Assembly: GCA_003024175.1 (NCBI GenBank) | Contig: MDYQ01000115.1 | Coordinates: 44,095 to 108,094 of the forward strand | Direction: 5' to 3' | From: Planoprotostelium fungivorum | Taxonomy: Eukaryota; Evosea; Variosea; Cavosteliida; Cavosteliaceae | DNA length: 64,000 nucleotides | Shown: piece by piece, positions 1 through 64,000 of the stretch | Layout: each line of letters starts with the position of its first letter | Position numbering within the stretch: position 1 is the first letter of the stretch | The notes under the pieces: model-generated | What the model was told of the DNA's origin: nothing | Databases searched by the model: none | What the model saw: the letters and a program-made list of their open reading frames with translations, nothing else | Position numbers and translations under genes: made by a program

Positions 1-66
1 CAGGCACACAGGGCTCCCACCCAAGTTGTAGACAATTACGCCATGTTCAACATCGAGGACGAATAA
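1..66 (+). CDS. 3' end of an unidentified gene
   Basis: An open frame runs from the window edge to a TAA at 64-66 and ends ...NYAMFNIEDE. It is too short to assign. The first base may already be inside an exon or just after an intron. It is convergent with the nonaspanin gene, whose stop codon lies 51 bp further on, so the two 3' UTRs must be very short or overlap. Confidence 0.4.
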   Translation, partial: QAHRAPTQVVDNYAMFNIEDE

Positions 67-117
67 ATACGATAAAGAATTAGAGTTTAAAGAGTTCGAG
101 AGGAGAGTTTATTTCGA

Positions 118-2293
118 TTAGTCGATCTTGAGTCCTCGATAGATTCTACGTACAAAGATGAGAGAAGAGTAGAAGCCAACCGTTCCGAGCATGACAAAGA
201 AGAAGAAACAGACGAGGAGCATGTAGGCAAAGTAGAAGCTGCTCTGGAGGGTACCCGTCATGTGTGAAGTAAACTTGTAGAAGAAGATGGAATAGCCGTA
301 GATGAAGATACCAGTCGACCTACCACCCTCTTAAAAAGAGCTCCAAGTGATGATCCTCTCACCCTCCGTTCAAGAAAGAATTCCACCACCACCTGTGGTC
401 CTCCATGGACAATTGGAAGTAAGTGAGGGCGATCGTGATGCAAGCCGTGACGATCAAGAGGATGATGGCGACTAAAAATAAGATTCCAAACAGCTGGTAG
501 GATTTGTGTCCCCAGGTGCTCTCGAACAAGTATCTCAACTCGGTGTATATGGCACTGCGACGGGTCAGCGTTGTATATGATGAATAAAACGAAATAAAAC
601 CTGAAGGGGAGGAAACCAGACATGAGCATCTGGAAGGGAAGGGAGCGGTAGAAGGGGATGGGTGGGATTTCTCTGGGGAAATTCTTCGTTCTACAAGGCG
701 CCTCGAATGAACCAGTAGACCTCCTGCCAGCGATACCTCCAATTACATTCAACGGGAATCCAACTACAACGAGTCAGTCTCAAACGTTCGTACCGTCGCA
801 AATGATTGTGCCTACCCATGATTAAGATGGCCAGGACGGTCAAGATACCGCTGACGGGAACGGCATTTGTCGCGTTGTAGATGATGGCCACAGTGTTGAC
901 GTAAGAGAAGACGAAGATAGAGGGGATGGTGTAGAGGGAACCCACGAGGACGATGTTCCAGGCCCAGCCTTCACCTCCAAACTGCTTGAAGAAAGAGGCA
1001 GAGACGAATCCTGATTAGAAGATGAGTCATTCGAAGATGGAAGATCGGATGATGATGAACCGTGTACCTCCGAGGACACTGGTCAATGCATAGAGGACGA
1101 TGGATGCCACGTAGAGGTTACCGTCGTTGCCTGGGTAGAAGACTCCGACAAGTGCCAGAATTAAGAGGCCAAAGAGGACGGCGAGAAATTGACAGCCGAG
1201 ACCGATGAGAGCACAGAAGAGAGTTCGATTCTGAGGGAAGCGGAAGACATCACCGTGAACCAGCTTCCAGCCGTAGTCTTCCGTGTCTGTCCCTGTGATG
1301 GATGAGATGATGATGGATGATATGGGATCGATTACCATCTTCTTCATCGTCGAGGAGGGCGTAACGAGTGTAATCGTTCTTGAGAATACGGAGGATGATG
1401 ATGGTGAGGAAACCAGTTAAGAGGAGGACCAAGATGATGGAGTTCATGATGGACAACCAGTGGATCTGCATGGGACTCTTGGGCTCCATTAATTCAGCGT
1501 ACTTGGCTCTCTTGCTGTAAGGAAAGTCTAAGAAATGTCAACATGTGTGCGCGACATTGTAGAAGATCTCTCACCTGTCTCTGACCATTCGCTGGAATAT
1601 GTGACATCGAAAGTGAGTTCATCACCCTTGAGCTCTACGACTTTGTTGAGATCGGCAGTGATGTTTCCGTAGATGACCTTTTAAAACATCAGTCAAATGA
1701 GACACATAACATTCACCTGATCTTTGTTGTATAAAAAGTGGAAGTGAAGGTGAGCAAAGTAGTAGTGGCGTCTGGTAGAAGGGGTGCTGTCGTCTTGCGA
1801 GTTAGACACGACACCTACGAAACCAAAGAGGGGGATTCCATCGTATTCCATTTCGAATTGGTAATACTGATCGATCGCCCTCTTATATTCCTCGATGTGC
1901 TTGCTTTCCAGAGTAATTGTGCAGAGTTTCTCTGACTTGGTCTCTGTAACATGAATTAGAACTTCGAATGTAAGATGTTCGAGCTTCTAAGAACTCGTTT
2001 TCCTTCTCACCTCTGAAGTGAATGTCATATCCGGTGGTGAACGCTCTATCTCCAGTTAGCTTGTGCTTGAGTGAGTGCTTGTGGCCATTTGCAGACCCCT
2101 CTGTGCGGCAGAATTTGATCTTATCATAGAACCCGTATCTCTCGCTGGGGTTCGAGTATGGTCCAATCTTGTTTCCGAATAGAGGGATAACATCACTCTG
2201 AGCATAATGGTTTCCACCCTTCTTCGAATCGGCCACCAGAAGGATCACCGAGAGTATGAAGACTCTACAGATGAGGGTGAAGGTTTTGGTCAT
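118..2293 (-). CDS. TM9SF-family nonaspanin (EMP70 / Phg1-like)
   Basis: A multi-exon gene for a nine-transmembrane endomembrane protein of the TM9SF family. In Dictyostelium, Phg1 members act in adhesion, phagocytosis and sorting of membrane proteins. The start codon at 2293 gives a signal peptide ([17 protein letters not shown]) followed by the family's lumenal domain, with the recognisable stretches IPLFGFVG and [12 protein letters not shown]. The membrane half carries family hallmarks: [34 protein letters not shown] and [17 protein letters not shown], ending in ...YRGLKID. A short charged C-terminus of this type is a COPI/Golgi-retention-like signal in the family. Exons are separated by short introns, several carrying the TTGTAGAT-type motif. 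The intron at 555-600 shares a 30-nt core with one in FKBP15. Which TM9SF subtype it is cannot be settled by eye. Confidence 0.9.
555..600 (-). repeat. TM9SF intron sharing a 30-nt core with an FKBP15 intron
   Basis: This 46-nt minus-strand intron joins ...GFLPF to [10 protein letters not shown], which is the expected continuity for the nonaspanin family. The core at 570-599 matches 27454-27483 at 28 of 30 positions, but relative to transcription it is inverted. Confidence 0.7.
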
Positions 2294-2623
2294 GGTGATG
2301 TGTGCTGATTGACCGCGAAAAAAAACTCTCAACAGCCACGTTGTCGGTAACTACCGAGAAAAAATTGCGTTCACAAAAAAGAGCGACTGCGACCTCGTCA
2401 GCTGCAACCTTGTCAGCTCGGCCACAACCTTTCGAGATGAAGTCATCACGTAAAATTTTCAAGCCAGATGGAGAGGTGTCTGATGTGGATGCGACATCGA
2501 TCGGGGAAGGGATGCCGAGGGAAATGGATCCTCAAAGACAATCCGATCGGCGCGTCGGGTCCCGTCCTCCGAGATGATTTCATCAAACACTATCCATAAT
2601 CTGTACCTCTTCTAAACAACCAC

Positions 2624-4238: not shown

Positions 4239-4462
4239 AGCGATAGAGGATCACATTTTAGAAGAGAAACAACTTATATCAAACCATGGATCCGACAGCC
4301 GAGAGAAGGAACATCTTTCACCAACATCGCTCGGATCAATCCCATCATCGAAAGAGGAGAAGCAATAAATAGACCGACGCCTCTATACCTGCGCCTCCTG
4401 CATCGTTCCCGATATTTTTAGAGAGACATACGTTCTGACACCGCACCATCCGAAACTCCCCG

Positions 4463-6224: not shown

Positions 6225-9200
6225 TCAGAGTCTATTCATGATCTTCTCCAGGGTCTCGTTGACCAATTGTGACAGCTGTTGTAAGAGAGGGAAGGTGATG
6301 CACTCGTGCTTCTGAGGTGTGAGCTCGACCAAGATGGAGACCACCTCTTCGGTGACGGATGGAAAGGCGCATGCGATGACGTAGAGCTGGTCGAGCGTGT
6401 GTAGGATGTAGATCTCTTTGCCGTTGTTCTTTCCATTCGTGCCTTCATAGGTGGAGACGCTCTTGATCTCAGTGATGTTGGGACGAGATCGCATGAAGTG
6501 GAGGATGGTGCGAACACAATCCAAACTGTCTTTGATTCAGTTTTCGGGTTCTAAAGGTCAAGATGATGGTGATGATGGATGCATGGAACAGAAGATGGAG
6601 CGTGCGCCACGCTCTATGATGAGACGATGAGAGTGCTCTGACCTCTTTGGTATAGGATACTTCTGAGCTAACGTCGCTCCCAATTTTGTGGCAAAGATCT
6701 GCTTCCTCTGCAGCACATCATCAGATCGACATCGTCTCATCTGATCTCACCGTGTGTGGCTGAGCCAGCAGTTCTGGAATGAAGTCCAAACAGATGTGCA
6801 TGGACGGAATACCTTCTACGGTGACCGGGATGAGAGTGTGGTGATAACCTTGGAAGTGAACCAACTTAGCCATGAGCGGATTGTCCATGAAGATGTCATG
6901 GATCATGAGGCACACTTTCATTCTTATCTCTTGGATATCACCTGCACAATTCAGTCGAAATGCAGAAGAAATATTGTAGCGTTGTAGATCGAATGTCTCA
7001 CCGATCTCTTGAGGTGCAGAATTTTCCAAAGAATTTCCGTTGTAGATGCACAATTCGAGTAATTGTTGGATGATGGTGCTCTCGGTGGACAAGATCAAGG
7101 TGGTCACCTCCTCGTGCTTCTTCTGCAAAGACGTCAGACCTATGAAGTCACACCACATCACCTGTGTCTGTCCGGAGTGCTCCAAGTTTCTCCTGGAGCA
7201 GACTGTGTAGAATTGGATGACTTTCAAAACCATATCCAAGACAACGGGGTGAGTGTAGCAGATGTCCTCTAGTTGAAAGAGTACCATTGGATCGTACAAT
7301 AGGTCCTCGTGACGTAAATTACGCTCGGTCAACCCTAGAGAGTTGACCAGAATGACGCAAGCTCGCTGTGGATCTGATAGGTAGCAATTGTACCACATCA
7401 TGGAGATCTTTTTCAGAGATTTCTCGTGGAAAATTTCCTCCCTTTTCGTGGAATGTTTCAAGAGGCGAGGTAAGTGATCGAAGAGAGAAGGCACTGGCAG
7501 TGTAGACAGTCTCTCCATCTGTAAGAAATATTCTCCTCCACGAAAGATATCAGAATCTTCCAGAGAATTTTCTGTGCAGTAACGGAGTAATTCCGGTTCC
7601 GAGAACCGATCCACGGTGCTACTTGGGTCAGAAATTTCGGAGAAATTTCACTCACCTGTACAATTGATCTTCCTCGTACAGCTGATCGCTGACATTGAAG
7701 AGTTGAGGACACTGACTGATAGCAAAGCCGTACATCGCTGCGTACAATTTCTCCATCTCCAGGGTGAAGCGAGATTTCATGCAACCTCCGTCTACAACGC
7801 TCACTTTTCTCCCATTTTTCCTCTTTTTCGGTCGAATGCTGTCGAGGATGTTCTTGATGGGAATCTTCTCTATGATTTCCCTGGAATATCCTACGAAATT
7901 TCATTGAGATTTCACATCGACATTCTCACCCTCTTGTTCCGGCGTCAACTTCTTGTCTTCTTGTCTCAGACGGTGAGATTGCTCGTTGTAGTGCAAGGTA
8001 TAATAAGCCACGAGGATCAATCGAGTTCGTGTCTGAGCCTCATTCAACGGTAGGTCTTCATTAAACACGGCAGCGATGAGGTCCATCTGCATTCTCGTTC
8101 CGTTCTCTGAACTCAACGTACTGTATGACGTCATCACACGTCATCCATATGGTCTCACCATGCGATGTATTCATTGATGATTTCGATCTCGTGAGGGTGA
8201 ATGGTATCAGATCTCGTCATGATCATCTCACACACGAAATCTCGCAGATTGGGCGCGAAACCGTGGTGTACGCTCAGTCTCCTCGGTCCCTTCATGCATT
8301 CCAACACCGCCTCTAATAACAGAAATCCCGATCCCTCGTGCTTCTACAACGCGCCATCAATCATCTCCGACGAGATTTCGATGAGATTTCACTCACTTCT
8401 CCGTGTATGGGTATGCTGATGACTCTCTCCACGACATAAGATTCAGGCATGATGTCCTCCGTGATCATCTTGCTCAATGCAACGTAACTCGCCTGGTGAA
8501 TCTGCACCTTTGCCTCGAGTAGATTTCTGACCGTCTGCACGGCCGCCTCGTATTGTTCCGTGTGCAACTGCAGGGCGAAGAGTAACAGTGCGGTTGCGGC
8601 CACGGCGTGTGTCTCCCCTCCCTCGTTCTGACAACCTTCCTTGACGATCGATCTCAATCCCGCCTTGAGTGCATCTGCATCAGCCGTCTTGTACACATCC
8701 TTTGCAATGAGGAGGACACAGACCACAGATAGCGTTGTAGATGAAGAGCGGGAGACCGATAGACCTCGCAGGAGTTTGTCGACGTCGACCGAAGACAATT
8801 CCATGGTGTGGATGCCGACGAGACCACACAATAGATGGGCGGCGGCATCAGATGATTGGGAGGATCCAGGGTCTCCGAGTGTGTGGAAGAGGTTGTCTTT
8901 CAAAATTTGAATGTCGTGAGGTTGTGAATATTCTTCTTCCATGCCGTTGAAATCTCGTCGGTTGTACGACTCGAAGATGGGTTTGAGCCACGCGTGATCT
9001 TCCCGCCAAAAGAGTGCGTTCAAAAATTGAATCTGGAGGGGTGAGCGGGAGATGATGATGACGGCGATCACGTGATGATCGAGTTGCATGGACAATGAGA
9101 TGACGAGAGAAGGCATGACTTGATGTTCAACCAGTTGGGCTCGAATTCGCGTGGCAATGTGCTTGCTCTTGCGAGATAGCGTCGACAGAATTTCCCTGGA

Positions 9201-15022: not shown

Positions 15023-15259
15023 GTGAAGTCAAGTGTGATGGACGCCACAGCCGACGTCGCATCATCACAAAAGATAGAACTTGCGTCCGAAACCCCACGT
15101 GGTGAGATGATGTCACCTCCCTTGGAATCTAATTTCTACCCAGATGACTCACTGGAGGACAAGGACAGACCCATGGCATCACAACAGCCATCCACAGAGG
15201 AAAGTCAAGGAGACACCTCAGACTCTGGTGTGTCTTCGCTCTCCATCATCATTGACTGA
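15023..15259 (+). CDS. Acidic, low-complexity ORF of unknown function
   Basis: A 78-residue open frame, with the likely ATG at 15038-15040 (MDATADVASSQKIELASETP). It is rich in Ser, Glu, Asp and Pro and has no recognisable domain. It could be the last exon of an unseen gene or the first exon of the gene that follows. The obvious GT-AG join at about 15226-15268 does not keep a frame. Confidence 0.3.
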   Translation: MKSSVMDATADVASSQKIELASETPRGEMMSPPLESNFYPDDSLEDKDRPMASQQPSTEESQGDTSDSGVSSLSIIID

Positions 15260-15268
15260 CACCGACAG

Positions 15269-15925: not shown

Positions 15926-16151
15926 ATACACAACCTTTTATATATAATAAATTACGAACGTTTCACCTCGTCATCGTGTATGTCGATCGGCTGTGACGGT
16001 GTAGAAGAAGAATGGTAATCGTGTGTCTTCTTGTGAAGAAAAGAAGAAGATCGATGATGAGACAATGAGAGTGCTCTGACGTAAAAATCCAAAAATTCTC
16101 CAAATACAACAGGCCACGCACCCGCATCTGGTTGAATTTATTGAGAACGAC

Positions 16152-29923: not shown

Positions 29924-29955
<32 letters not shown>

Positions 29956-40429: not shown

Positions 40430-40430
40430 N

Positions 40431-47399: not shown

Positions 47400-49211
47400 A
47401 TGGATGACCCAATCCCATTCCTCAAGGAGTTTCGAAAGAACGGAAGAGAAGTAGCCCTACAAGATGGAGTTTTCGACTTCGATGGAACGAAATTCCCTCG
47501 TGACGCGGAGACGAGTTTCAAAGCGAAGAAGGGACATGCTTACACTCTTGGGGCCATCTGGTTCCTGTTCAAGCACATCGACAAGAAGCATACGGATTAC
47601 GTCCAAGAATGCACGAAAGAGCTCTTCCCTGTCGTTTCTATCGTAGACAAACCGTGAGGTCTACGATCTACCTGTATCATTGACCTTTCTATAGGATTAT
47701 AATCAGTAGCATGCCCTTCGGCCAACCTCAAACAGGGGTCAAGAGAGATGCCTCCGCTTTAGAAGAGAAGAAGCCAGAAGAAAGCGCAGAGTCTATGTGG
47801 GTTTTCCTAGGTGGCCTCATTTCACACATTTGATCGTGCACAGTGCCGGTCTATCGATCAACTATCTGAGAGACATGAGAAAGAAACAGAGGAAAGAAGG
47901 TAAGTCACCATCTCCATTTCCAAGCTTCATGGGCGATCTGATCTCTATACAGTGACGTCTAAGACGGGTCCTCAATTGACCATTGCTGAGCCAGAGCCCG
48001 TTGGAGGGAGAATCGGGTAGAACATCATCACATCGATCTTTGTGAACTCACCTGTTTCAGACAAGTGGTCAACAAAGAAAGACACCTCAGCAATCGTAAT
48101 TCCATCTTACAGAGTAAGAAGGGAAAGTCATTCATCACCATCGTGGAGTCCGTAAACAATTCACTCAGAGCCGCCGAAGAGAAGAAGAGAGCGGTGAGTC
48201 CAATCGATCTACAACGGTGTAGATTGACCCAAACAAGGGCAAAACACCGGATCCAAAGAAGAGAGAAGGATACGATCGCTATGGAGAAGTCGACGATAAT
48301 CGTTTCTGGAAGGACAGACTGCAAGGTGATCATGACTCTTCACACTTGAAATTTCCACGAATAGACGAAAAATATTCAAAGAAAATCGACTGAAGTCTTG
48401 TACAGAGACTGCAGAGTTCAACATCGACACGAGAGGAACTTTCGCCACACCGAAGACGGGAAGAGCGGTGATCTACATTGTTGTAGACGAACGATCCATC
48501 TGATCACAAACAGCCACCGCAGAACACCCCCGTCAAATCCTCCACCCCCGTCAAAAAGTGGGACAAGAATCGTGAGTGTCTCGTTGTAGATCGACTCTCA
48601 CCATCGCCTCAGACGTACCCATCATCATCGTTCCCGCCGCTCAGACCTCCCCCCTCACCATGTACAATATCAAGGAATTCCTCGAAGACGGAACGTATCC
48701 ACCCTTCGAATCCCACTCCCTCCCTTTTTTTCCTTCACCCTCCACAGTTTCACCCCCAGCGTGGAGAAGAAGAATTCCGGAACGAAATTGGAGAGGACTA
48801 TCTACATCGAGAGGAAGAAGAGGGATGGCTTACCCCCCAACGCCGTCACAAAGTTCCAAGTGACCGAGGCGGTGAACCGTTTCGAGGGTAAAGACTGGGA
48901 CAAGGTCGTCGGCTGCTTCGTCTTAGACAACACGTGGCAGTTCAAGTCTTGGAAGTGGACTTCACCTCTTGAGATATTCTCTCACGGTGGGTTCGATATC
49001 GGGTCGTTGTAGATGGAAGGTCAGCTGAAAGAGTGCAGTGAAGGGATTTTACGTTCACTACGAGGAGGAGAAGGTCTCTGATAACGTCAAGGAGTGGAAC
49101 GTGTCACAGTTGAAGGTGTCGAAGCAGAAGGCGAGGAAACACGTGTCCCACAGTGCTATGGTCACCTTCTGGGATGCCATCGATGAAGCCATGGGAGTAT
49201 TAAAGAAGTAA
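47400..49211 (+). CDS. CDC73: CDC73 / parafibromin homologue (PAF1 complex subunit)
   Basis: The start MDDPIPFLKEFRKNGREVAL leads into the N-terminal domain (FDFDGTKFPRDAETSF, KGHAYTLGAIWFLFKH). A charged middle (VTSKTGPQLTIAEPEPVGG) follows. The family's central element is split by introns (TIVESVNNSLRAAEEKKRA, KREGYDRYGEVDDNRFWKDR). The C-terminal Ras-like domain is diagnostic: PIIIVPAAQTSPLTMYNIKE, DWDKVVGCFVLDNTWQFKSW and KARKHVSHSAMVTFWDAIDE. CDC73 is a PAF1-complex subunit coupling Pol II elongation to histone modification. The stop is TAA at 49209-49211. Some middle exon borders (about 47990-48060 and 48325-48600) are uncertain. Confidence 0.9.
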
Positions 49212-50055
49212 CCTTTCTCTTCTCCTCGTCTCATCTTCTCATCTTCTCCCTTCTTTCTTCCCTTTCTCTTCCTTCTCTCTTCCTCTTCTCTTCTCTCTTC
49301 CTTCTCTTCTCTTCCTTCTCTTCTCTCTTCCTTCTCTTCTTACTTCAGTTCTCACTTTCTCTTCCGACCTCTATGACCGCCCATCTTTCTGTACGAACCC
49401 TTTTGGATCTCCTCGTATCACGGAACCATCTGAATTGAGCTCTCCTCGGTTTCCGATTCAAGCGGCAATTCGGGCTCACCGTACAATAAACCCGCACGCA
49501 TGCGGTTTGAGTCGTCAATCCAACCCTTCCGGTTTTTGTGTGGTCCTCAACGTCAGAGGTGGCGAACAAGTGTACCTCTTAGAAGGAGCGCGCACTGTTT
49601 CTCTGGGCAGGAACGACGGGGCGTGGACGGACAATCGGACGAGTTTTCACGCAGGGTTGTCTCACCCCACTACGACGTAAGCTGATACAGGTCAGTTCCC
49701 ACACTTGTCCTTGAATGTACTTATAATAGCGGAAAGGAGTACAACGACGTACTGAGAATCACCGAGGCTACCCAAAGCGATGCGGATTTGCCGCGAGATT
49801 TCACTACGCAGAGTATAAGGCGACAAGGGTGGCATCAATGACTATCAAATTAAGAGGAATGAGGTACAGATCGGAGAAATTTCTATATCTGGTAAACGGA
49901 ACCTTCAACGATGCCCGTTTGACGCGGGGAGTGTCCATTTTTAAGTTGATCCTCGAACGAAAAAGGGCTGAAGGATCCGCTCTCACGTGAAGGCATAACA
50001 GCGATCACGCAGACACGAGAATACAGCCAGAAAGGTACTACCACGAACAACGATC
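49212..50055. other. Interval with a polypyrimidine tract and an unresolved ORF
   Basis: After the pyrimidine tract, an open frame at about 49520-49680 reads GFCVVLNVRGGEQVYLLEGA then RTVSLGRNDGAWTDNRTSF. This weakly resembles the start of an FHA domain (G..x-x-L-G-R). A further frame at 49837-49990 reads MTIKLRGMRYRSEKFLYLVN. These could be exons of one plus-strand gene, but no consistent join was found. Confidence 0.35.
49214..49346 (+). repeat. Polypyrimidine (CT-rich) tract
   Basis: About 130 nt almost entirely of C and T, with repeated TTCTCTTC / CTTCCTTCTC units and a terminal CAG. It begins directly after the CDC73 stop codon. Confidence 0.85.
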
Positions 50056-51973
50056 ATGAGCAACTTAGTCGCCCCATCACCTTCTTCGACGACTTCTAGA
50101 GGTTCTTCATCGAGCTCTCTCAACACTCGACTCCCCGGAGATCACATCGTAGAGGTGATGAACGACCATCTCCTTCATACCTTCTCATCTTCTTCAGTCT
50201 ATTCGCTGCCGAGAATATGCGCCACTTCATTCTCTCATCCGTCGCATCGACCCCGCACAGTACCATGCCCTGGCCGAAGAGGTCTGGATCTTCTGCGAAG
50301 ACTTCGACTGGGAGATTTTGAGGTGGTTCAGCAAATCGAAAGAGGAGATAGCACCTCTGGGACACTTGGAGTTCCCCGACTTGCTGCTGAAGCAGCTGGC
50401 CCTGGGAGACTTCTCCATGAACTTCCACCGTCGACACTTGGCTCCTCACTTCACACGAGCTCAGATGGCCGCCGATAAATTGGTGAGATAATCTCGTTGT
50501 AGATGGATGACTGACTCGTTGTAGACGACAGATAAATTGGTCTCCACCGTAACATCCATGATTGATTTATTGTTTCAAGCCGTCATCCAGAGCTTCTCTT
50601 ATTACCCAGTGTGAGTGTTCTACCTCCAACTTACAGACGCTAACACCCAGGCAGACAGTTACGTGTCTTGGGCATGGAATCCAGAGAGGAGGGAGGAAAG
50701 GGATCAGAAGTCCTCACCACTCAACTGAGAGAGTTCCTCATGTGGAACATGTTCCCCCTTCTCAACCGCCCCGCCGCATTCGGTTACACCGACATCGACA
50801 GTGAGTCATCTCCATCTCATCTCATCTTCACGTCCGTCTGACTCGTTGTAGATTGCCCGAAGATGAAGAGAATCGTAGACGAGTGCGCCAGAGTCGTCGC
50901 CAACGCCTGCCGCCAGAAGGAGTTGAAGAACGACGCATACAAGAAGCTCTACGAAGAATGGAACGACAAGCTGAACGAAGCTTTCGAGGCCGTCATCGAG
51001 GCCGAGGAAGTCATCATGGCCCAGAAGATATTTATGGCACAGGTGAAGCTTCGTCTACAACGTTGTAGATGCTGATATTGATGCAGCATTTACCCAACTT
51101 GAAGAAGGAGCAGAGAAATGCAGAGAAGTTGGCCATGTATATCGATAACCTCTTAGAAGAGAAGAGTGAAGAAGATATGTCCCAACACGGCTCTCCGTTA
51201 GATCTCGTACGTAACCTACGCATCACACGTCCATTCGCTGAGATTTCACAGATTCCCGCCAGAAGAGACGTACTGCTGAGCAAATTCGGCCTGGACTGGA
51301 AGGCCTTCAAATCGTACGGCGATCTCCTCAGTTACTCTTCCCCCTCCATCACCGTACGTATTTCACCATCTACAACGCTGTAGATACTCAACCCCTTCCA
51401 GATGGGCACACACGCCCGGGTCGAAATCTGGATCCAAGGCAGAGTGTCCGACGTTGTAGATCGAGTCTTTCAGGAATTATTCCACCGTGCCGACTTCATG
51501 GACGTCAACGTGACCCCAATGGCCAATGGACACAGACAAGTCAGCTACCGAAAGAGGATGCCGTTCCCTTACAGTCAGAGATACGTCAACGTCAACACGT
51601 GGACGACCGTGGACGGTAAAGAGGGTGTCATCTACATCGAGGACAACGCAGAACATCAGGGGAAACCGAAGGGATGTGAGAGGGCGAGATTGCAAGGTGA
51701 TGTTGAAGAGGTGATGATGATGGAGGCTGATGACGATGCAGCCAGTGGAGTCATCGTGAGGAGGTACGATGAGATGGTTAAGATGGAGATGTTATGGCAC
51801 GTCAATCTGGGAGGAAATGTCCCTGAATGGGTGCGTTGTAGATGGAGGTGGTCTGTTCTGACTCGTTGTAGATGGTGAAATACTGGACGAATATCACGGC
51901 CAAATCCCTCACGGTGATCGCGAAGAAAGTCAAGGAGACAGTCTCACGCAGCAGTTTCAAGTCCATTTCATAA
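50056..51973 (+). CDS. Unknown helical protein with C-terminal START-like lipid-binding domain
   Basis: The start MSNLVAPSPSSTTSRGSSSS is followed by helical exons (HALAEEVWIFCEDFDWEILR, FPDLLLKQLALGDFSMNFHR, DNCPKMKRIVDECARVVANA). The C-terminal part has START-domain features: ARVEIWIQGRVSDVVDRVFQ, QVSYRKRMPFPYSQRYVNVN, WTTVDGKEGVIYIEDN and then VKMEMLWHVNLGGNVPEW with a final amphipathic helix (YWTNITAKSLTVIAKKVKE). It may bind a lipid. Two introns end in TGACTCGTTGTAG. The intron at 50483-50524 is flanked by an 11-bp direct repeat. The 3' end lies in the left arm of the large inverted duplication, so a partial or complete second copy should lie beyond the right window edge. Confidence 0.6.
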
Positions 51974-52208
51974 CCTCATGAGCTGTAAATAAACGAATGG
52001 AGCCAGCGTGCTATTTGAATCTACACGATAGAATGAAAGAGATGAGATGCAGAGAGAAAAGAGAAGAAGACAGACACACAGGTGAGAAAGAGGTCATGAG
52101 AGAAAAACGTCTATGATGGGGATGCATGGAATCAGTCACGGCAGCATTGCAGAAGGGGACATATGGTGTCTGTGTCTACGAATCAGACAACGACGTCTGC
52201 GAGATTCG

Positions 52209-52228
52209 CCCGGAAAAACTTTTCCGGG
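52209..52228. repeat. Perfect 9-bp hairpin upstream of the left P450
   Basis: CCCGGAAAA, AC, TTTTCCGGG. It lies 70 bp before the P450 start codon and is conserved in the right arm at 63738-63757. Position suggests a promoter element or 5' UTR structure. Confidence 0.7.
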
Positions 52229-52297
52229 AAAGTGTACCGGATTAACGGAACAATCCGCTGTGCATACACCTGTGCAGATTTGTAACGCACAACGAAC

Positions 52298-54367
52298 ATG
52301 GACTCAGTTATATCTGCCGTCTGCGTGGCTATCGTCATTGCATCCTTCTTTCAGATTCGTAGATGGTGGCTCAGTGATCCGTATGTGGGGTGAGATCAGA
52401 TTACGTTGGCATTGAAAATTTCTAATCATCTGCAGAGTCGACCCCAACATTCCAGAACCCGTCAAATTCCATCCTTTCTGGGGTAAGCACATCTCTCCCC
52501 AGTACGAATGTTAATCATACATTGACAGGGGTGCTGCCTTACCGCGACAATGAAGTCAGACTCAGATGGGTCTTCCAATGGGCCATCGGTCGCCCTATCA
52601 TGAAGATCCATGCCTTCAAAATTCCATTCCGTGAGATGTCAATTTTGAAGGCTCTCCATGACCTCCCCCAGTTGTCGTCAGTGAGCCCGCTCTCATCCAA
52701 GAGGTCATTCAGAACCCTGCCTTCGCTCAGAAGGAACCACGCTCTTACCAGATCCTGGGACGTTTCATCGGTAATGCATTACCATCCACCCCCCTCTTCA
52801 CGTCTTCATACCCTCTCCTTCTTCTCTCCTGACACTCTACAGGTAGTAAGAGTACCCTGGTAACTCACGGACCAGAATACACCAACATCCAACGTCTCAT
52901 CCAACCCATCTTCCACAGGAGAAACATGGAAGACTACTTCTACCAGACCATGATCGATAGCACCGAAGACTATGCCACGAAGATCGCCACACTCGCCCCC
53001 AATAGCGACACCGCTGTGGAGGGTGAGGAGGACAGCACGGCTCGTTGTAGATTGACCTCCCTTCCAGGTCTGAATGCCCTATCCACAATCGACATCGACC
53101 ACTACAACACGATGTACACCTTAGACATCATCATGAGATGCATGTTCGGTGTCCGTTTCGAAACCGGAGCCGACGACGTCTCCAACCGAGTCGAAGCGGG
53201 TGACGTCATCACACGTCATCGCTCGCGTTGTAGATTGACTCCCTCAGGTGCAGAAGAAGTCCAGAAGCAGATCTCGAATCTCTTCTACGCTCTGTCTCCC
53301 CTCGCTCGTTACCGAAGTGAGACATATCTCAGACACTTGTCTCCTTCTCACATTCGTTCAGGTTACATCCAAGTGAGAGACATGAGGAAAGACTTTCTCA
53401 ACATCATCGAATCGAAGAAAAAGAACCCCAACGATGGTGAGATCTACAACGTGTCTCCCGTCTACAACGGTGGCAGGTACGAAGAGGAAAGATCTGGCGG
53501 ACATGCTGATCGAAGCGAGAGATCCAGATACCGGAAAGCCGATAGACGATGAGGTCCGTCATCTCATCGTTCGACACCTGATCGACGATGCAGGTCATCA
53601 TCGATCAGTTCCTCACTCTCATGCTGGCCGGTCACGACACTACCGCCCACACTCTAACTTGGATCTTACACATGCTATCTGAGAGGCCCGACGCAGAAGA
53701 GAAGGTGAAGCTTCCATTCGAATGGAATCCTGACCACACCAGCTACTGAAGGAGATCGAGACTGCACTCAACGGCAGGACACAACTGTCTTACAGTGAAT
53801 TGACCGAGCTCAAGTACATGGATGCCATCGTCAAGGAAACCATGCGTATCTTCCCCGCTGTGTGTACGTATGTACGTACGCAAATCGATATCTGACGCGT
53901 TGTAGATGCGGTGGGTCGCTGCGCCTTGTATGATACTCGCCTGGGTAAATACGAAGTGAAGGCGGGAACGAAAATCATGATCAATATCCTCACACCACAG
54001 CTGACCGAGAGGTTCTACAACGACCCCACCGGCTGGAACCCTGATCGGTGAGATTTCCTCGAATTATCTCCATCTACAACGCTCAACGTCACAGATGGAT
54101 GACTGCAGAGACCTTCCCCTCCCACTCTTACGCATGGATGCCCTTCTCGAAGGGAGAGAGGAGCTGCGTTGGACAGAGGTTCGCCCTCTTAGAGATCCGT
54201 GTCGCTCTCCTGCACCTCCTTCCCAGGTGAGAAGACGAGACAGAGGGAGAGAGACTGAGAGAGACAGGTTCAAGTTCAAGACGAGCCGCTTGCACAGCAT
54301 CAAATTGGAGAGGAGGATCACGACGCAGGGAGTCGTTCACATGACTCCAGAAATTCGAACGAAATAA
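52298..54367 (+). CDS. Cytochrome P450 (left copy)
   Basis: A microsomal-type P450 monooxygenase. An N-terminal membrane anchor ([18 protein letters not shown]) is followed by WW and the P450 body. The I-helix is [18 protein letters not shown] with the A-G-x-D-T-T oxygen-activation motif. The K-helix ExxR lies in [10 protein letters not shown], and the WNPDRW/PERF-like region follows. The heme loop is [18 protein letters not shown], with the Cys thiolate. All key residues are present, so the enzyme should be active; the substrate is unknown. It has many short introns. One at about 52592-52680 contains a 12-bp inverted repeat (GCCTTCAAAATT) and another has CCATTCGAATGG. The stop is TAA at 54365-54367. 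Confidence 0.92.
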
Positions 54368-54524
54368 AAGAGGACGTTAGATTGGAATGCAGAGGTGTGA
54401 TGTCTGTGTGATCGAGTGAACCTGACAGAGTGGTGGTGAATCCGAGGGAATAGTGGATCCAAGACAGTGAGTCTTTCAGAGAGATGAGAGGTTAAAGGCG
54501 TCTTAGGCTGGACGAAAGGGTCGA

Positions 54525-55353
54525 TCAACGGGAGAACTGAGATACCAACAAAAACCGATTTCGCAGCGAGAATGTCGTTTGTCGACTTGTTGGTTTGAGG
54601 CTCGCCGTCTCCGTCTTCGTCTTCTCTTTCAATCTCTTCTCTTCCTTCTTGTGCCACGCGAATGGACTCCATACAAGCCACAGTAAGATGACCAGACCTC
54701 CCCACACGCAGAAGAGGACGATCCAGACAGTAGCAGCTCCCACGTAAGCCATACCTGACGAGATGTTTACCACAGCCAATAAGAAGGCTACTCTTCCCAA
54801 CCATCGATGGATGATACCCTGATACCGTCAGTATGGTTTTCAGACCAGATAAGCTTCAAGTTACCGGAACAGTTGGACGTCCTTTCTTCGAAGGGTCTTT
54901 CCCTGCTCTGTGGTCGTGATAGACATGAGCTCCGATGCCTGCGCCTCGTCGTCAATTCACTGTGACTGGATAGGAATCGCGGTGACTCACCCAGGAGAAA
55001 TTGGACGGTGATGAAGAAGGTGATGAAGGTTCCTATCCAAGCATGGGCGATGATGACTCTCGTTCTCGTGTTCTTTCCGGGCCGTGTGTAGTCATTCTCT
55101 GCGAAATAGACTCCAAAGGCAAATGCGACGGCAACCAAGATGAAGGTGGCCGTGTTGAGAATGGCGTGATACGGTACCCACCTACTTCATGTGAGGAAGT
55201 GTGGCTGTCGAATCATCACCTCTTCTTGTAGGCCTTCGCAAAGTGGGCGATGAACGCGGCGAGAGGTAAGAGCAAGACGAAAGCGATGCTCATCAAGACG
55301 ATGTGAGCTGTTCGGTAACTGATGGGTGGCTCAGCCATGACGGCCGAGATCAT
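54525..55353 (-). CDS. Cytochrome b561-type membrane protein (left copy, stop codon lost)
   Basis: The start MISAVMAEPPISYRTAHIVL leads into a b561 core with hydrophobic helices and four candidate heme histidines: in AHIVLMSIAF, YHAILNTATF, IAHAWIGTFITF and IIHRWLGRVAFLLAV. Such proteins pass electrons across membranes, often for ferric reduction; there is no DOMON domain. Relative to the right copy, the TAA after ...KPTSR has become CAA, so the frame runs on for 17 residues (QTTFSLRNRFLLVSQFSR) to TGA at 54525-54527. Three short introns are seen. Confidence 0.8.
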
Positions 55354-56237
55354 CTGTAGAGTCTTAGGGTGAAGAACTTACAATTTTACCAATACCGCGA
55401 GGAATACCAAGGTGGAACGTGAGTGCATGGTATGTGATTGCGTTTTGATTTGACCTTCCGTGCGGCCTAGTCAGGTGCTGACGCCGTGCGGCAAGAATTC
55501 GAAGAGATCTGCGTGACATGAGCAGCTCATGTAGTCACAGATTACTCATCCCTTGCCAGAATTCATCCGCGGGGGTCACATACCCCACAGAAAGTTGGGG
55601 GGTGGTGATGATGGACGGAGGTAGAATTAGAAATCGGATGAGGACTTGACAGAGTCGGGTGTAGGATGATGTGCTGTCATCCTGACGAAGAAGAAGTCGC
55701 ACGTGCCTGAAGAATATGTTCACCTATGCATCGTGAGTCAGATACGGAGTCTCACCTCTCGACACGGCAGGCCATAGAGAGACGCACGGTCCAGATTCCG
55801 ACTTTCCTGATTCGTTCGAAGGGGAAGAGGAGGAGTACACCAACTCCCTTCAGGCGGTTGAAGGCTCCGAAATATCGACGAAACTCAAAGATAATGCGCA
55901 CTATTTGGAGGTGCCTCTACTCTGCCTCCTCCTCCAGATGTTGTCGTCAATCGTTTGGGATAGAGGGGTGTTGCTGCGGCCGCCTTATCGAGGAGATAGA
56001 CTCCAGGGGGGTTGAAAATGTACCCCGGTCGCTTGGAAACACCGGAGATGTCAGCTTTGTAATTGCCGCTCGAAATCTTACCGTGCTATGAGCACGGTAA
56101 GACAAGCACATTCGGGGTTGTAGAGCGGAGTTTTGATATTTCCATTGTTGGGATGTCTCTATCATTTTTCTTCTGTGGGTGATTGGTGAGGAGCATGATG
56201 CGATTTCACTGTGGCGCGGGGCTCATGGCGATTCAGG
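55354..56237. other. Left-arm interval with degraded ORFs
   Basis: On the minus strand a stretch reading ADISGVSKRPGYIFNPPGVY then LLDKAAAATPLYPKRL is shared with the right arm (about 60110-60235). The two copies differ after it, and no full gene is clear. The hairpin at 56077-56101 lies here. The remaining sequence has many indels between arms and is probably non-coding or decaying. Confidence 0.35.
56077..56101. repeat. Perfect 11-bp hairpin over a GGTAAG donor-like site
   Basis: CTTACCGTGCT, ATG, AGCACGGTAAG. The right arm keeps the stem as 9 bp with a 7-nt loop at 60074-60098, although the loop and flanks have changed. Confidence 0.75.
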
Positions 56238-56402
56238 ATGCCCACGTATACATTACACACAACAACGGATCACCCGCTCCTCGGACCTCATAAGAAGATT
56301 ATCATGGTGGCAGCCTCCCTCTTTGTCTTCGTCGTTTTCTGTTGGGTAATCCACCGACTGTTTCGAGTCTATCAGCACCTCAGTTCTGAACAGACCAAGT
56401 GA
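56238..56402 (+). CDS. 54-residue single-pass membrane protein (left copy)
   Basis: MPTYTLHTTTDHPLLGPHKK is followed by a strong membrane segment (IIMVAASLFVFVVFCWVIH), a basic flank RLFRVYQH and LSSEQTK, then TGA. The right-arm copy encodes the same protein although surrounding sequence has diverged. That supports a real gene. Function unknown. Confidence 0.6.
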   Translation: MPTYTLHTTTDHPLLGPHKKIIMVAASLFVFVVFCWVIHRLFRVYQHLSSEQTK

Positions 56403-57031
56403 GCATGCATAACAACTCCGGACTCCGCATTAACTCCGAAACAGGGCTGAAGCGAGGCCAAAACTGCAGCATTACAGACCCTTATCACCTCTAAAGACGA
56501 GTGGAGGGTCTCCGGGAGGCTCACTGGATCAATTAACCCTCATGCGAATCAGCAGCAGTGCATTGCCTCTTGATGGTTTCGGACGGAAGAGGGACTCACC
56601 GTCTCCGGCATCACCTTCTGAGTCGATTCACCTGGGAATGTCTGCAGAGCCATTCCGTGAAACGTGAGCTTTCCCGCCAAAAACTGAGGAAGAGAGAGGG
56701 GGATAATCACGTTCGAAGAGGATGAGTGGAGGAATTTATAGTATCTAAATCTGAAAGAGCTTCGATAAAGATGACATCTTGTACTTAGAAGTCGATCCAC
56801 ATGATCTTTCACACACGATGACACAGGATAGTCCAACGAACATAATCACGATCACACGAGAGATGAATAGTGAATGCCACTCAAAGATGCCGGAAATAGT
56901 GTCGATCATCTTCTTTGATGACAACCACGCTGGAGGGCATATAGCTGAGAGGAAATCAAATGACACTCTCCTCATGTTGTGACTGATCATGTCTTCGATT
57001 ATGATCTGCGAGAGGAACTTCACCACACGTT
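56403..57031. other. Left-arm end and spacer junction
   Basis: A minus-strand frame at 56549-56836 reads VIIPLSLPQFLAGKLTFHGM then ALQTFPGESTQKVMPETV and is the same in the right arm (59364-59627). It may be an exon of a gene whose upstream exons differ between copies, because the inverted identity stops at about 56925. Beyond it the minus-strand frame VKFLSQIIIEDMISHN is unique to the left. Confidence 0.35.
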
Positions 57032-59244: not shown

Positions 59245-59773
59245 ACGAGGATGGTTGTCATCAAAGAAGATGATCGACCTATTTCCGGCATCTTTGAGTG
59301 GCATTCACTCTTCATCTCTCGTGTGATCGTGATTATGTTCGCTGAGATATTCTATGTCATCGTGTGAAAGATCATGTGGATCGACTTCTAAGTACAAGAT
59401 GTCATCTTTATCGAAGCTCTTTCAGATTTAGATACTATAAATTCCTCCACTCATCCTCTTCGAACGTGATTATCCCCCTCTCTCTTCCTCAGTTTTTGGC
59501 GGGAAAGCTCACGTTTCACGGAATGGCTCTGCAGACATTCCCAGGTGAATCGACTCAGAAGGTGATGCCGGAGACGGTGAGTCCCTCTTCCGTCCGAAAC
59601 CATCAAGAGGCAATGCACTGCTGCTGATTCGCATGAGGGTTAATTGATCCAGTGAGCCTCCCGGAGACCCTCCACTCGTCTTTAGAGGTGATAAGGGTCT
59701 GTAATGCTGCAGTTTTGGCCTCGCTTCAGCCCTGTTTCGGAGTTAATGCGGAGTCCGGAGTTGTTATGCATGC

Positions 59774-59938
59774 TCACTTGGTCTGTTCAGAACTGAGGTG
59801 CTGATAGACTCGAAACAGTCGGTGGATTACCCAACAGAAAACGACGAAGACAAAGAGGGAGGCTGCCACCATGATAATCTTCTTGTGAGGTCCGAGGAGC
59901 GGGTGATCCGTTGTTGTGTGTAATGTATACGTGGGCAT
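59774..59938 (-). CDS. 54-residue single-pass membrane protein (right copy)
   Basis: The mirror of the left-arm ORF at 56238-56402, with the same start MPTYTLHTTTDHP, the same membrane segment and the same end SSEQTK. I found no amino-acid difference. Confidence 0.6.
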   Translation of the reverse strand: MPTYTLHTTTDHPLLGPHKKIIMVAASLFVFVVFCWVIHRLFRVYQHLSSEQTK

Positions 59939-60073
59939 CCTAAATCGCCATGAGCACCGCGCCGCAGTGAAATCGCATCATGCTCCTCACCAATCACCCA
60001 CAGAAGAAAAATGATAGAGACATCCTTACAATGGAAATATCAAAACTCCGCTCTACAACCCAAATGAGCTCGA

Positions 60074-60098
60074 CTTACCGTGCTTGAGACACGGTAAG
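60074..60098. repeat. Hairpin, right-arm counterpart of 56077-56101
   Basis: CTTACCGTG, seven-nucleotide loop CTTGAGA, CACGGTAAG. The stem is kept although the loop differs from the left copy. Confidence 0.7.
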
Positions 60099-60734
60099 AT
60101 CGCAAGCGGTAATTACAAAGCTGACATCTCCGGGGTTTCCAAGCGACCGGGGTACATTTTCAACCCTCCTGGAGTCTATCTCCTCGATAAGGCGGCTGCA
60201 GCAACACCCCTCTATCCCAAACGATTGACGACACCATTTGGATGAGGAGACAGAGTAGAGGGCACCTCCAAGGAATGCGCATTATCTTTGAGTTTCGTCG
60301 ATATTTCGGAGTTCCACCTCAAGGGAGTTGGTGTACTCCTCTTCCCACTCGAACAAATCAGGAAAGTCGGAATCTAATTCTCCAGGCGTGCGACTTCTTC
60401 TTCATCAGGATGACGGCACATCGTCCTACATCCGACTCTGTCAAGTCCTCATCCGATTTCTAATTCTCCCACAACCTCAGTCCATCATCAACTTTCTGTG
60501 GGGTATCTGACCCCCGCGGATGAATTTTCTGGCAAGGGGTGAGTAATCTGTGACTACATGAGCTGCTCATGTCACGCAGATCTCTTCGAATTCTTGCCGC
60601 ACGGCGTCAGCACCTGACTAGGCCGCACGGAAGGTCAAATCAAAACGCAATCACATACCATGCACTCACGTTCCACCTTGGTATTCCTCGCGGTATTGGT
60701 AAAATTGTAAGTTCTTCACCCTAAGACTCTACAG

Positions 60735-61502
60735 ATGATCTCGGCCGTCATGGCTGAGCCACCCATCAGTTACCGAACAGCTCACATCGTCTTGATGAGC
60801 ATCGCTTTCGTCTTGCTCTTACCTCTCGCCGCGTTCATCGCCCACTTTGCGAAGGCCTACAAGAAGAGGTGATGATTCGACAGCCACACTTCCTCACATG
60901 AAGTAGGTGGGTACCGTATCACGCCATTCTCAACACGGCCACCTTCATCTTGGTTGCCGTCGCATTTGCCTTTGGAGTCTATTTCGCAGAGAATGACTAC
61001 ACACGGCCCGGAAAGAACACGAGAACGAGAGTCATCATCGCCCATGCTTGGATAGGAACCTTCATCACCTTCTTCATCACCGTCCAATTTCTCCTGGGTG
61101 AGTCACCGCAATTCCTATCCAGTCACAGTGAATTGACGACGAGGTGCAGGCATCGGAGCTCATGTCTATCACGACCACAGAGCAGTGAAAGACCCTTCGA
61201 AGAAAGGACGTCCAACTGTTCCGGTGAGTCTCACCCGAGAACCATACTGATGGTGTCAGGGTATCGTCCATCGATGGTTGGGAAGAGTTACCTTCTTATT
61301 GGCTGTGGTGAACATCTCGTTAGGTATGGCTTACGTGGGAGCTGCTACTGTGTGGATCGTCCTCTTCTGCGTGTGGGGAGGTCTGGTCATCTTACTGTGG
61401 CTCGTATGGAGTGCATTCGCGTGGCACGAGAAGGAAGAGAAGAGATTGAAAGAGGAGAAGACGCAGATGGAGACGGCGAGCCTCAAACCAACGAGTCGAT
61501 AA
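60735..61502 (+). CDS. Cytochrome b561-type membrane protein (right copy)
   Basis: The same protein as the left copy with the ancestral-looking end ...LKPTSR followed by TAA at 61500-61502. Exon joins include KKR/WVPYHAILNTATF across an intron ending CATGAAGTAG. Four conserved histidines lie in helical contexts (AHIVL, YHAIL, AHAWIG, IHRWLGR). Differences from the left copy include SAFAWHEKEE against SPFAWHKKEE and a two-codon change in the charged tail. Confidence 0.8.
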
Positions 61503-61601
61503 ATGACATTCTCGCAGCGAAATCGGTTTTCATTGGTATCTCAGTCGTGTTCCTCTCTCTCACAGACATGACACCTCTGCATTTCAATCCAACTTCCTCT
61601 T

Positions 61602-63668
61602 TTATTTCGTTCGAAGTTCTGGAGTCATGTGGACGACTCCCTGCGTCGTGATTCTCCTCTCCAATTTGATGCTGTGCAGGCGGCTCGTCTTGAACTTGAA
61701 CCTGTCCCTCTCAGTTTCTCTCCTCTGTCTCGTCTTCTCACCTGGGAAGGAGGTGCAGGAGGGCGACACGGATCTCTAAGAGTGCGAACCTCTGTCCAAC
61801 GCAGCTCCTCTCTCCTTTAGAGAAGGGCATCCACGCGTAAGAGTGGGAGGGGAAGGTCTCTGCAGTCATCCATCTGCGACGTTGAGCGTTATAGATGGGG
61901 AGAATTCGAGGAAATCTCACCGGTCAGGGTTCCAGCCGGTGGGGTCGTTGTAGAACCTCTCGGTCAGCTGTGGTGTGAGAATATTGATCATGATTTTCGT
62001 TCCCGCCTTCACTTCGTATTTACCCAGGCGAGTGTCATACAAGGCACAGCGACCCACCGCATCTACAACGCGTCAGATCAAGTTACGTACGTAAGCACGT
62101 ACACACGGCGGGGAAGATACGCATGGTCTCCTTGACGATGGCATCCATGTACTTCAGCTCGGTCAATTCACTGTAAGACAATTGTGTCCTGCCGTTGAGT
62201 GCAGTCTCGATCTCCTTCAGTAGCTGGTGTGGTCAGGATTCCATTCGAATGGAAGCTTCACCTTCTCTTCTGCGTCGGGCCTCTCAGATAGCATGTGTAA
62301 GATCCAAGTTAGAGTGTGGGCGGTAGTGTCGTGACCGGCCAGCATGAGAGTGAGGAACTGATCGATGATGACCTGCATCGTCGATCAGGTGTCGAACGAT
62401 GAGATGACGGACCTCATCGTCTATCGGCTTTCCGGTATCTGGATCTCTCGCTTCGATCAGCATGTCCGCCAGATCTTTCCTCTTCGTACCTGCCACCGTT
62501 GTAGACGGGAGACACGTTGTAGATCTCACCATCGTTGGGGTTCTTTTTCTTCGATTCGATGATGTTGAGAAAGTCTTTCCTCATGTCTCTCACTTGGATG
62601 TAACCTGAACGAATGTGAGAAGGAGACAAGTGTCTGAGATATGTCTCACTTCGGTAACGAGCGAGGGGAGACAGAGCGTAGAAGAGATTCGAGATCTGCT
62701 TCTGGACTTCTTCTGCACCTGAGGGAGTCAATCTACAACGCGAGCGATGACGTGTGATGACGTCACCCGCTTCGACTCGGTTGGAGACGTCGTCGGCTCC
62801 GGTTTCGAAACGGACACCGAACATGCATCTCATGATGATGTCTAAGGTGTACATCGTGTTGTAGTGGTCGATGTCGATTGTGGATAGGGCATTCAGACCT
62901 GGAAGGGAGGTCAATCTACAACGAGCCGTGCTGTCCTCCTCACCCTCCACAGCGGTGTCGCTATTGGGGGCGAGTGTGGCGATCTTCGTGGCATAGTCTT
63001 CGGTGCTATCGATCATGGTCTGGTAGAAGTAGTCTTCCATGTTTCTCCTGTGGAAGATGGGTTGGATGAGACGTTGGATGTTGGTGTATTCTGGTCCGTG
63101 AGTTACCAGGGTACTCTTACTACCTGTAGAGTGTCAGGAGAGAAGAAGGAGAGGGTATGAAGACGTGAAGAGGGGGGTGGATGGTAATGCATTACCGATG
63201 AAACGTCCCAGGATCTGGTAAGAGCGTGGTTCCTTCTGAGCGAAGGCAGGGTTCTGAATGACCTCTTGGATGAGAGCGGGCTCACTGACGACAACTGGGG
63301 GAGGTCATGGAGAGCCTTCAAAATTGACATCTCACGGAATGGAATTTTGAAGGCATGGATCTTCATGATAGGGCGACCGATGGCCCATTGGAAGACCCAT
63401 CTGAGTCTGACTTCATTGTCGCGGTAAGGCAGCACCCCTGTCAATGTATGATTAACATTCGTACTGGGGAGAGATGTGCTTACCCCAGAAAGGATGGAAT
63501 TTGACGGGTTCTGGAATGTTGGGGTCGACTCTGCAGATGATTAGAAATTTTCAATGCCAACGTAATCTGATCTCACCCCACATACGGATCACTGAGCCAC
63601 CATCTACGAATCTGAAAGAAGGATGCAATGATGATAGCCACGCAGATGGCAGATATAATTGAGTCCAT
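61602..63668 (-). CDS. Cytochrome P450 (right copy)
   Basis: The mirror copy of the left P450 with the same motifs ([22 protein letters not shown]). The N-terminus differs by conservative changes ([16 protein letters not shown] against [16 protein letters not shown]). From about 62106 to 63620 it looks identical to the left copy, introns included. The 3' third has several substitutions. The stop is at 61602-61604. Confidence 0.92.
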
Positions 63669-63737
63669 GTTCGTTGTGCGTTACAAATTTGCACAGGTGT
63701 ATGCACAGCGGATTGTTCCGTTAATCCGGCACACTTT

Positions 63738-63757
63738 CCCGGAAAAGTTTTTCCGGG
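63738..63757. repeat. Perfect 9-bp hairpin upstream of the right P450
   Basis: CCCGGAAAA, GT, TTTTCCGGG, the counterpart of 52209-52228 and 70 bp upstream of the right P450 start. Confidence 0.7.
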
Positions 63758-64000
63758 CGAATCTGCACGACCCCATGCATCCCCATCATCGACGTTTTTT
63801 TCTCATCACCTCTTTCTCTGTACTTCTCATCTTTGTCTGTGGGTCTCTCATCTCTTTGATTCTATCGTGTCGATTCGAATAGCACGTTGGCTCCGTTCGT
63901 TTATTTACAGCTCATGAGGTTATGAAATGGACTTGTAACTGCTGCGTGAGACTGTCTCCTTGACTTTCTTCGCGATCACCGTGAGGGATTTGGCCGTGAT

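Follow-up and report, generated by a model that had tools for sequence, protein, structure and literature searches.

Why should a single 9-bp word recur in intron after intron of unrelated genes in a fruiting amoeba, and what might read it? The question is raised by a 64-kb stretch of DNA (the window; C52:44095-108094, contig MDYQ01000115.1, within a 36.9-Mb, 471-contig assembly) filed at NCBI under Planoprotostelium fungivorum (Amoebozoa), an entry that is really Protostelium aurantium according to the consulted part of one report (PMC10639083). A sequence-only reading of the window had pointed to the word GTTGTAGAT and its complement ATCTACAAC (together, the 9-mer) and offered three meanings: an extended splice-site consensus, an intronic regulatory element, or introners (mobile introns). 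We find that the motif makes up half of a longer palindromic site in double-stranded DNA, the 18-bp ATCTACAAC/GTTGTAGAT, which is also present as single half-sites. With a probability of roughly 0.62, we read it as one of three palindromic words that are kept in the interiors of long genes, in introns and in synonymous codons, and are rare in the first ~750 bp and between genes, the words being putative sites of dimeric proteins. The concentration in gene interiors, the exonic preference, and the palindrome all go beyond what the sequence-only reading had described.

Detailed counts were made on the window and 200 kb of another contig (C1), 264 kb in all. Genes were predicted with a two-strand hidden-Markov gene finder using order-1 intron and intergenic models and trained on its own predictions for this material; it returned 953 introns with a median length of 43 nt, and intron counts use the 939 that fall within length limits of 20 or 23 to 150 nt. 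We counted either the 9-mer or its 7-base core, GTTGTAG or CTACAAC. The window contains an inverted duplication (51893-56927 and 59252-64000) with arms of ~5 kb that hold a P450, a neighbouring membrane-protein gene, and flank, in pieces 88-98% identical; one copy was left out only in the per-gene recount and kept in the other counts. A perfect 665-bp direct duplication at 39765-41095, adjoining the single N of the window, is possibly an assembly artefact.

The impression that the word stands at about 60 or more places, far above chance, was borne out: the window holds 66 exact copies of the 9-mer (40 on the plus strand and 26 on the minus strand) against ~0.5 expected (0.22 + 0.27 under a trinucleotide model), and 4 + 3 copies of TGACTCGTTGTAGAT. 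By the gene models, 48 of these 66 lie in introns, 18 in exons, and none between genes, in line with the earlier description of mostly intronic copies with an exonic minority. Over the 264 kb, introns contain 101 copies (2.15/kb), exons 61 (0.36/kb), and intergenic DNA 2 (0.04/kb), so that the motif is commoner in introns than elsewhere, and 125 of the 939 introns carry the core, which agrees with the "dozens" proposed. Individual sites singled out from the letters were recovered within 7 bases (19297, 19867, 53044, and 53227), as were introns ending in GTTGTAG at 27221, 50524, and 51871. We found no published record of the palindrome in a literature search that reached few subscription papers, and a query for gene-body palindromes returned no report of any; a paper found through a related query dealt with transcription-start motifs, and the papers examined for the 9-mer string were unrelated to the motif, judging from titles and the beginnings of abstracts.

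The geometry of the site is rigid. CTACA-N4-TGTAG occurs in 33 copies in the 264 kb, whereas gaps of 0-3 or 5-11, and the outward arrangement at any gap from 0 to 11, yield at most one each; inverted half-sites held at one spacing are what a site for a dimeric DNA-binding protein calls for. Across the assembly, the exact 18-mer ATCTACAACGTTGTAGAT is found at 287 places (control, 0) and GATGACGTCATC at 993 (control, 4), and single half-sites often take the composite form TGGC-NN-GTTGTAGAT-GGA. Orientation makes little difference: genome-wide, intron-like contexts number 602 for GTGAG...GTTGTAGAT...CAG and 531 for GTGAG...ATCTACAAC...CAG (controls, 3 and 4; the counts include a few introns twice, and each palindromic intron under both contexts), and sense and antisense copies take like places in introns (Kolmogorov-Smirnov p of 0.51 and 0.24). 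A strand-symmetric signal shared by introns and exons and nearly absent from intergenic DNA points to a signal in DNA rather than in RNA. Examples in the window are as follows.

51053-51070, plus strand: palindromic site GTCTACAACGTTGTAGAT lying in an intron predicted to span 26 nt (51043-51068), where the second half of the palindrome provides the predicted 3' splice site; a gap lies near the junction in a paralogue alignment.
17732-17780, plus strand: an antisense half-site and, 31 bases on, a sense half-site in a single intron (17723-17778), the sense one being the 3' splice site.
35240-35279, minus strand: two opposed half-sites in a single intron (35242-35289), one of them at the 3' splice site.
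53437-53476, plus strand: P450 intron with two antisense half-sites, by the gene model.
19280-19317, plus strand: intron with TGGCGGGTTGTAGATTGAC, in the composite TGGC-NN-GTTGTAGAT form.

What matters most is position along the gene. Within 750 bp of the start codon the core is found in 1 of 80 introns in the window and 9 of 281 in C1, whereas gene-interior introns carry it in 34 of 74 and 47 of 261 cases, respectively (p = 3e-12 and 9e-9); for introns less than 500 bp from the stop codon, the counts are 10/30 and 9/110. When any of three words is scored (the core and two further palindromes, TGACGTCA and GAAATTTC), successive 200-bp steps from the start codon give 5/98, 2/103, 9/103, and 9/80 introns, followed by 13/62 at 800-1000 bp, 30/89 at 1000-1250 bp, and 24-37% further on. 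For introns lying over 1000 bp past the start codon, the proportion with any word is 10% at less than 250 bp from the stop, 17% at 250-500 bp, 38% at 500-1000 bp, 30% at 1000-2000 bp, and 42% further in; of the introns less than 500 bp from the stop, 7 of 68 have one if the next gene runs in the same direction and 11 of 56 if it is convergent. With the duplication copy removed, the core is present in 10/347 near-start and 83/344 interior introns (28 genes up, 2 down, 11 ties), and control words in the same recount in 6/347 and 5/344. The effect of distance persists at equal intron number (Mantel-Haenszel odds ratio of 3.8 for the core). Three or more interior introns are available in 37 long genes; of these genes, 35 have one or more of the three words in such introns and 31 have the core. 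Promoter-proximal introns (<750 bp) have words of their own, ATGTTC, ATGTCC, and GATGTCAA with their complements, which are rarer beyond 1 kb (window and L001-L020; uncorrected for the number of words). In the window, the core sites are densest in the following runs.

16930-19999, plus strand: cluster of core sites in both orientations, within the central and 3' portions of a long gene (model 15038-20394) with the core in 11 of 30 introns.
32034-36925, minus strand: interior cluster in a long gene (model 31700-37889) with the core in 13 of 25 introns, the first ~0.96 kb of the model being free of it.
26800-29763, plus strand: cluster in the FKBP-domain gene (model 25990-31613).
48207-54080, plus strand: run of core sites over three adjacent genes (models 47400-49041, 50001-51973, and the P450 at 52298-54367).

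The core is not the only word so distributed. A scan of gene interiors for 5-base dyads with at least six occurrences returned essentially three systems, namely GAAAT-9-ATTTC, the 18-bp site, and (A)TGACGTCA(T) accompanied by a further half close by; a weaker signal comes from some CATCA/GATGA repeats. Both TGACGTCA and GAAATTTC show the same interior gradient as the core, less strongly: near-start versus interior introns carry TGACGTCA in 0/80 versus 6/74 cases in the window and 8/281 versus 20/261 in C1, and GAAATTTC in 0/80 versus 6/74 and 2/281 versus 15/261. Without the duplication copy, the figures are 8/347 versus 27/344 for TGACGTCA and 2/347 versus 21/344 for GAAATTTC (14 genes up, 1 down, 26 ties). 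No periodic spacing of sites was seen by eye in the spacing histograms; the exception is GAAATTTC, with a total of 12 pairs of sites offset by 11 or 22 bp. Introns of the window, all by gene model, that carry the two further words include these.

26981-27022, plus strand: intron with two TGACGTCA palindromes.
33331-33380, minus strand: intron with two TGACGTCA palindromes.
19848-19887, plus strand: intron that combines the core with one TGACGTCA palindrome.
7619-7655, minus strand: intron with two GAAATTTC palindromes 11 bp apart.
19054-19093, plus strand: intron with GAAATTTC.

Exons follow the same pattern through the choice among synonymous codons. Relative to synonymous-codon shuffles, interior exons hold 18 copies of GTTGTAGA where 0.6 are expected and 50 of TCTACAAC where 10.2 are expected; TGACGTCA is seen 11 times in the interior (2.2 expected) and twice near the start (2.0 expected), and GAAATTTC 16 times (2.5 expected) and 5 times (2.1 expected). 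The codon pair involved is GTT GTA: Val-Val before Asp or Glu is so written in 18 of 33 cases, where codon usage predicts 0.6 (p = 3e-23), against 4 of 188 before any other residue. By zone, Val-Val-[Asp/Glu] is written GTT GTA in 0 of 3 cases near the start, 13 of 18 in the interior, and 5 of 12 elsewhere. One of the 18 (28226) is clearly a missed intron and three are doubtful by context; dropping all four leaves 14 of 29 (p = 2e-17). Exonic copies occur in both orientations, and since the FVVDNG of a predicted gelsolin is identical in its JGI relative P0002, the exonic site there arose without insertion. Exonic core sites in the window include the following.

45736-45743, minus strand: Val-Val-Asp (GTT GTA GAC) in gelsolin FVVDNG, with the same residues in P0002.
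26847-26854, plus strand: Val-Val-Glu directly before the FKBP domain.
51453-51461, plus strand: Val-Val-Asp, with VVE at this place in the paralogue.
33825-33833, minus strand: Val-Val-Asp, by gene model.
53044-53056, plus strand: core left exonic by the P450 model; its context TTGACctcccttccag suggests a missed intron.

From the enrichment, strand symmetry, rigid dyad geometry, positional gradient, and exonic codon choice, we infer that sequence-specific, probably dimeric, DNA-binding proteins occupy the putative sites. Such proteins would read the three palindromic words inside long genes, and bound interior sites may serve the chromatin upkeep of long transcription units, for example by suppressing transcription starts that are internal or antisense; close to the true promoter, such sites would be useless or harmful and would be counter-selected. 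Where a half-site came to stand after a branch point (CTGAC), use of its TAG as the 3' splice site could be a side effect, presumably because splicing takes the first AG that follows the branch point. It is quite conceivable, though short of even odds, that the words form a sequence-encoded identity code for the insides of genes, a small set of dedicated palindromic words, placed in the introns and synonymous codons of most long genes and away from gene starts and intergenic DNA, that would be read by putative dimeric proteins as "transcribed interior, do not start here." We hold a little more loosely to the suggestion that, within long transcribed genes, the putative binders either keep the chromatin of the interior from becoming a source of independent transcripts or ease the passage of polymerase.

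Several observations weigh against this interpretation. The detailed analysis covers 264 kb of 36.9 Mb, the gene models are ab initio and self-trained, and distances run from predicted start codons, not transcription starts. Depletion of the core toward the 3' end is uneven, being clear in C1 but not evident in the window. Interior density varies among genes beyond chance (P of 0.011 for the core and 0.0002 for all three words), which is not what a universal interior mark would predict, and for TGACGTCA the per-gene comparison (13 up, 4 down, 24 ties; p = 0.049) is a weak test. Near-start exons also show an excess (GTTGTAGA, 4 against 0.3 expected; TCTACAAC, 12 against 3.4), and exonic TCTACAAC is inflated by a protein repeat in the FKBP-domain gene (30195-30516, DPLSTTSQ-like) whose codons hold it seven times. 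The exonic copies of the 9-mer include some introns missed by the models, clearly at 28226 and probably at 53044 and 53227. Leaving out the near-identical P450 pair, the core is shared by the partner in 6 of 21 directional comparisons with paralogues, close to the 24% share of interior introns that carry it; individual sites are therefore not visibly conserved. Finally, 43 introns use the core as their 3' splice site, and for those an RNA role is possible.

Of the other explanations, the one that fares best treats the words as enhancers within genes or as ordinary transcription-factor sites that lie there for want of intergenic space; we consider it unlikely. Core density correlates with GC content at third codon positions (GC3) at given gene length (partial r of 0.40, p = 0.001, n = 66), a correlation that may reflect expression, and TGACGTCA, the CRE/ATF word, matches a known factor class. 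However, the sites are rare where activator sites are expected, the densities of the three words being 0.02-0.09/kb between genes and 0.07-0.18/kb in the first 750 bp against 0.53-1.48/kb in the interior, and at least one word stands in the interior introns of nearly all the long genes counted above.

A splicing signal at the RNA level, either an extended branch-point/3' splice-site module or an intronic splicing element in pre-mRNA, is less probable again. Within introns the core was found 43 times at the 3' splice site, 49 times internally in sense, and 48 times in antisense, in overlapping classes, and only the first class has a fixed place relative to the splice sites. The proposal of an extended 3' splice-site consensus thus holds for these 43 of 939 introns, whose TAG is the 3' splice site and whose consensus is CTGACTC GTTGTAG/AT (the slash marks the junction), with the branch-point-like CTGAC just upstream; it does not extend to the internal copies (consensus TGGCTC GTTGTAG ATGGAC), nor to the antisense or exonic ones. 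Very short predicted introns of 23-30 nt (51043-51068, 48194-48222, and others) include several that end in GTTGTAG or GGTGTAG and hold both halves of the palindrome. Three of the junctions are backed by protein alignment. The gelsolin model (45558-47006) is identical over 370 amino acids to PROFUN_08751, itself possibly a prediction, and aligns without a gap over 358 amino acids with P0002 (80% identical), which supports the gene models. The gene at 50001-51973, labelled START by the sequence-only reading and without a hit in our Pfam search, has a 62% identical paralogue, PROFUN_06366; the alignment is gap-free at two of its four 3'-splice-site copies, has a gap near the other two, and includes at least one stretch of the model that resembles a missed intron. 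The introns concerned, with other examples, are listed here.

27183-27221, plus strand: intron of the FKBP-domain gene ending TGACTCGTTGTAG/AT, of the 3' splice-site class.
50483-50524, plus strand: intron that has one site inside and another copy at its 3' splice site; gap at the junction in the paralogue alignment.
50801-50851, plus strand: intron ending GTTGTAG, its junction gap-free against PROFUN_06366.
51831-51871, plus strand: intron holding two copies, one internal and the other at the 3' splice site, its junction PEW/MVKYW gap-free against PROFUN_06366.
45795-45836, minus strand: gelsolin intron ending GTTGTAG/ATC, in a model that yields exactly PROFUN_08751 and aligns without a gap to P0002 over the 358 amino acids.
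46098-46143, minus strand: gelsolin intron with an internal sense site, by the gelsolin gene model.

Against a splicing signal in general, antisense copies are about as common as sense copies and similarly placed, exonic copies occur in both orientations, and the sites are depleted near gene starts. By eye, the small nuclear RNAs (snRNAs) U1, U2, and U6 have canonical recognition sequences, and their Watson-Crick matches to the site reach 6 bases at most; once G-U pairs are allowed, U1 matches the sense 19-mer over 11 bases, and there is one 9-base match to the palindrome and otherwise at most 7, to which we give no weight. The assembly has 14 matches above cut-off to U2 snRNA (C27, C123, C387, C90, and others) and two tandem matches to U6 at C74, the second with an altered stretch after ACAGAGAAGATTA. 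The intronic regulatory element proposed earlier comes nearest of the three original meanings, but the motif is not specific to introns, since exons share both it and its interior rise.

Replication, recombination, or topoisomerase sites tolerated inside genes seem to us about as improbable as a splicing signal. They would suit the palindromic geometry and the strand symmetry and need no link to splicing, but they give no evident reason for depletion at gene starts or between genes, and the spacing shows no period by eye.

Pairing at the RNA level, either of sense with antisense copies in the same or different introns of a single pre-mRNA or as hairpins of the palindromes, is slightly harder still to credit. 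The same genes do hold both orientations, CTACA-NCGN-TGTAG could form a stem with a 4-base loop, and 10 folded introns with both orientations have a mean z of -1.21. On the other side, 104 introns with one orientation fold no better than 250 others (p = 0.41), the orientation of neighbours is near random (28 same, 33 different), and the balance per gene is no better than binomial. The outer pair of the palindrome is A..T at 287 genomic sites, mixed at 300, and G..C at 31, where 309, 256, and 53 are expected if the halves vary independently; with no excess of paired types and hence no covariation, an RNA hairpin is not needed.

Introners are described, in the consulted part of their source, as shared sequence in many introns, sometimes with inverted ends (PMC9860276), and the motif is like them in its shared sequence. 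The 19-mer TGGCTCGTTGTAGATGGAC at 302 genomic places with at most one mismatch (control, 0), the random orientation, and the inverted ends in some introns would all be consistent with introners or other short mobile elements inserted in genes and kept in introns. Intron creation, which on that partial view is their defining feature, is where the motif fails. In 34 directional comparisons with paralogues, 26 motif introns have a counterpart at the same position, which contains the motif in 10 cases and lacks it in 16, and 8 motif introns have none; they are shared as often as other introns (159 of 237 shared, 78 absent). Some introns are counted several times here, and the near-identical P450 pair is included. 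Positions shared with motif-free paralogues mean that the motif does not create introns, and we reject introners making new introns on this ground. Similarity among motif introns ends at about 19 bp by eye, they are not longer than others (median of 41 versus 43), and no target-site duplication was obvious in the introns inspected, in which no systematic search was made. Given also the near-absence between genes, the exonic copies written by synonymous codons within conserved protein, and the single distribution of three unrelated palindromes, insertion by mobile elements of any kind is very hard to sustain. A target of gene-body CpG methylation was likewise rejected, there being no interior CpG loss (observed/expected of 0.89 in exons near the start, 0.90 in interior exons, and 0.93 between genes); matches to cytosine DNA methylase (PF00145) are present in two contigs of the assembly (C72 and C271).

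DNA-binding sites inside genes are familiar from "duons" (factor sites in coding sequence) and from the MSL recognition elements of fly gene bodies, and the putative sites described here resemble them in constraining codons or sitting in gene bodies. To our knowledge, neither amounts to a group of palindromic sites found inside most long genes, and we know of no case in which the periodic An/Tn clusters (PATCs) of Caenorhabditis elegans are written in codons. Histone marks coupled to transcription, rather than DNA sequence, are the usual explanation of how cells distinguish the inside of a gene from a promoter. PATCs are presented, in the portion of the source consulted, as a non-coding DNA signal in introns that prevents transgene silencing (PMC7725773); they are periodic A/T runs, whereas the sites here are specific palindromes. 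In Arabidopsis, the motif of intron-mediated enhancement, TTNGATYTG, lies close to the promoter, has no activity far downstream, and acts from introns or exons without splicing, as far as the consulted part of its source goes (PMC6760150). Like that motif, to the same extent, ours is short, was found through over-representation in a positional class of introns, and is present in introns and exons; unlike it, the words described here, known from sequence alone, are palindromes that avoid the first ~750 bp, with the opposite gradient.

In this organism, then, DNA words appear to specify gene interiors, strongly enough to dictate codon choice. The motif supplies a source of codon bias acting in exons and accounts for a group of unusual 3' splice sites, and the question of what distinguishes a gene interior from a promoter becomes directly testable in an amoeba.

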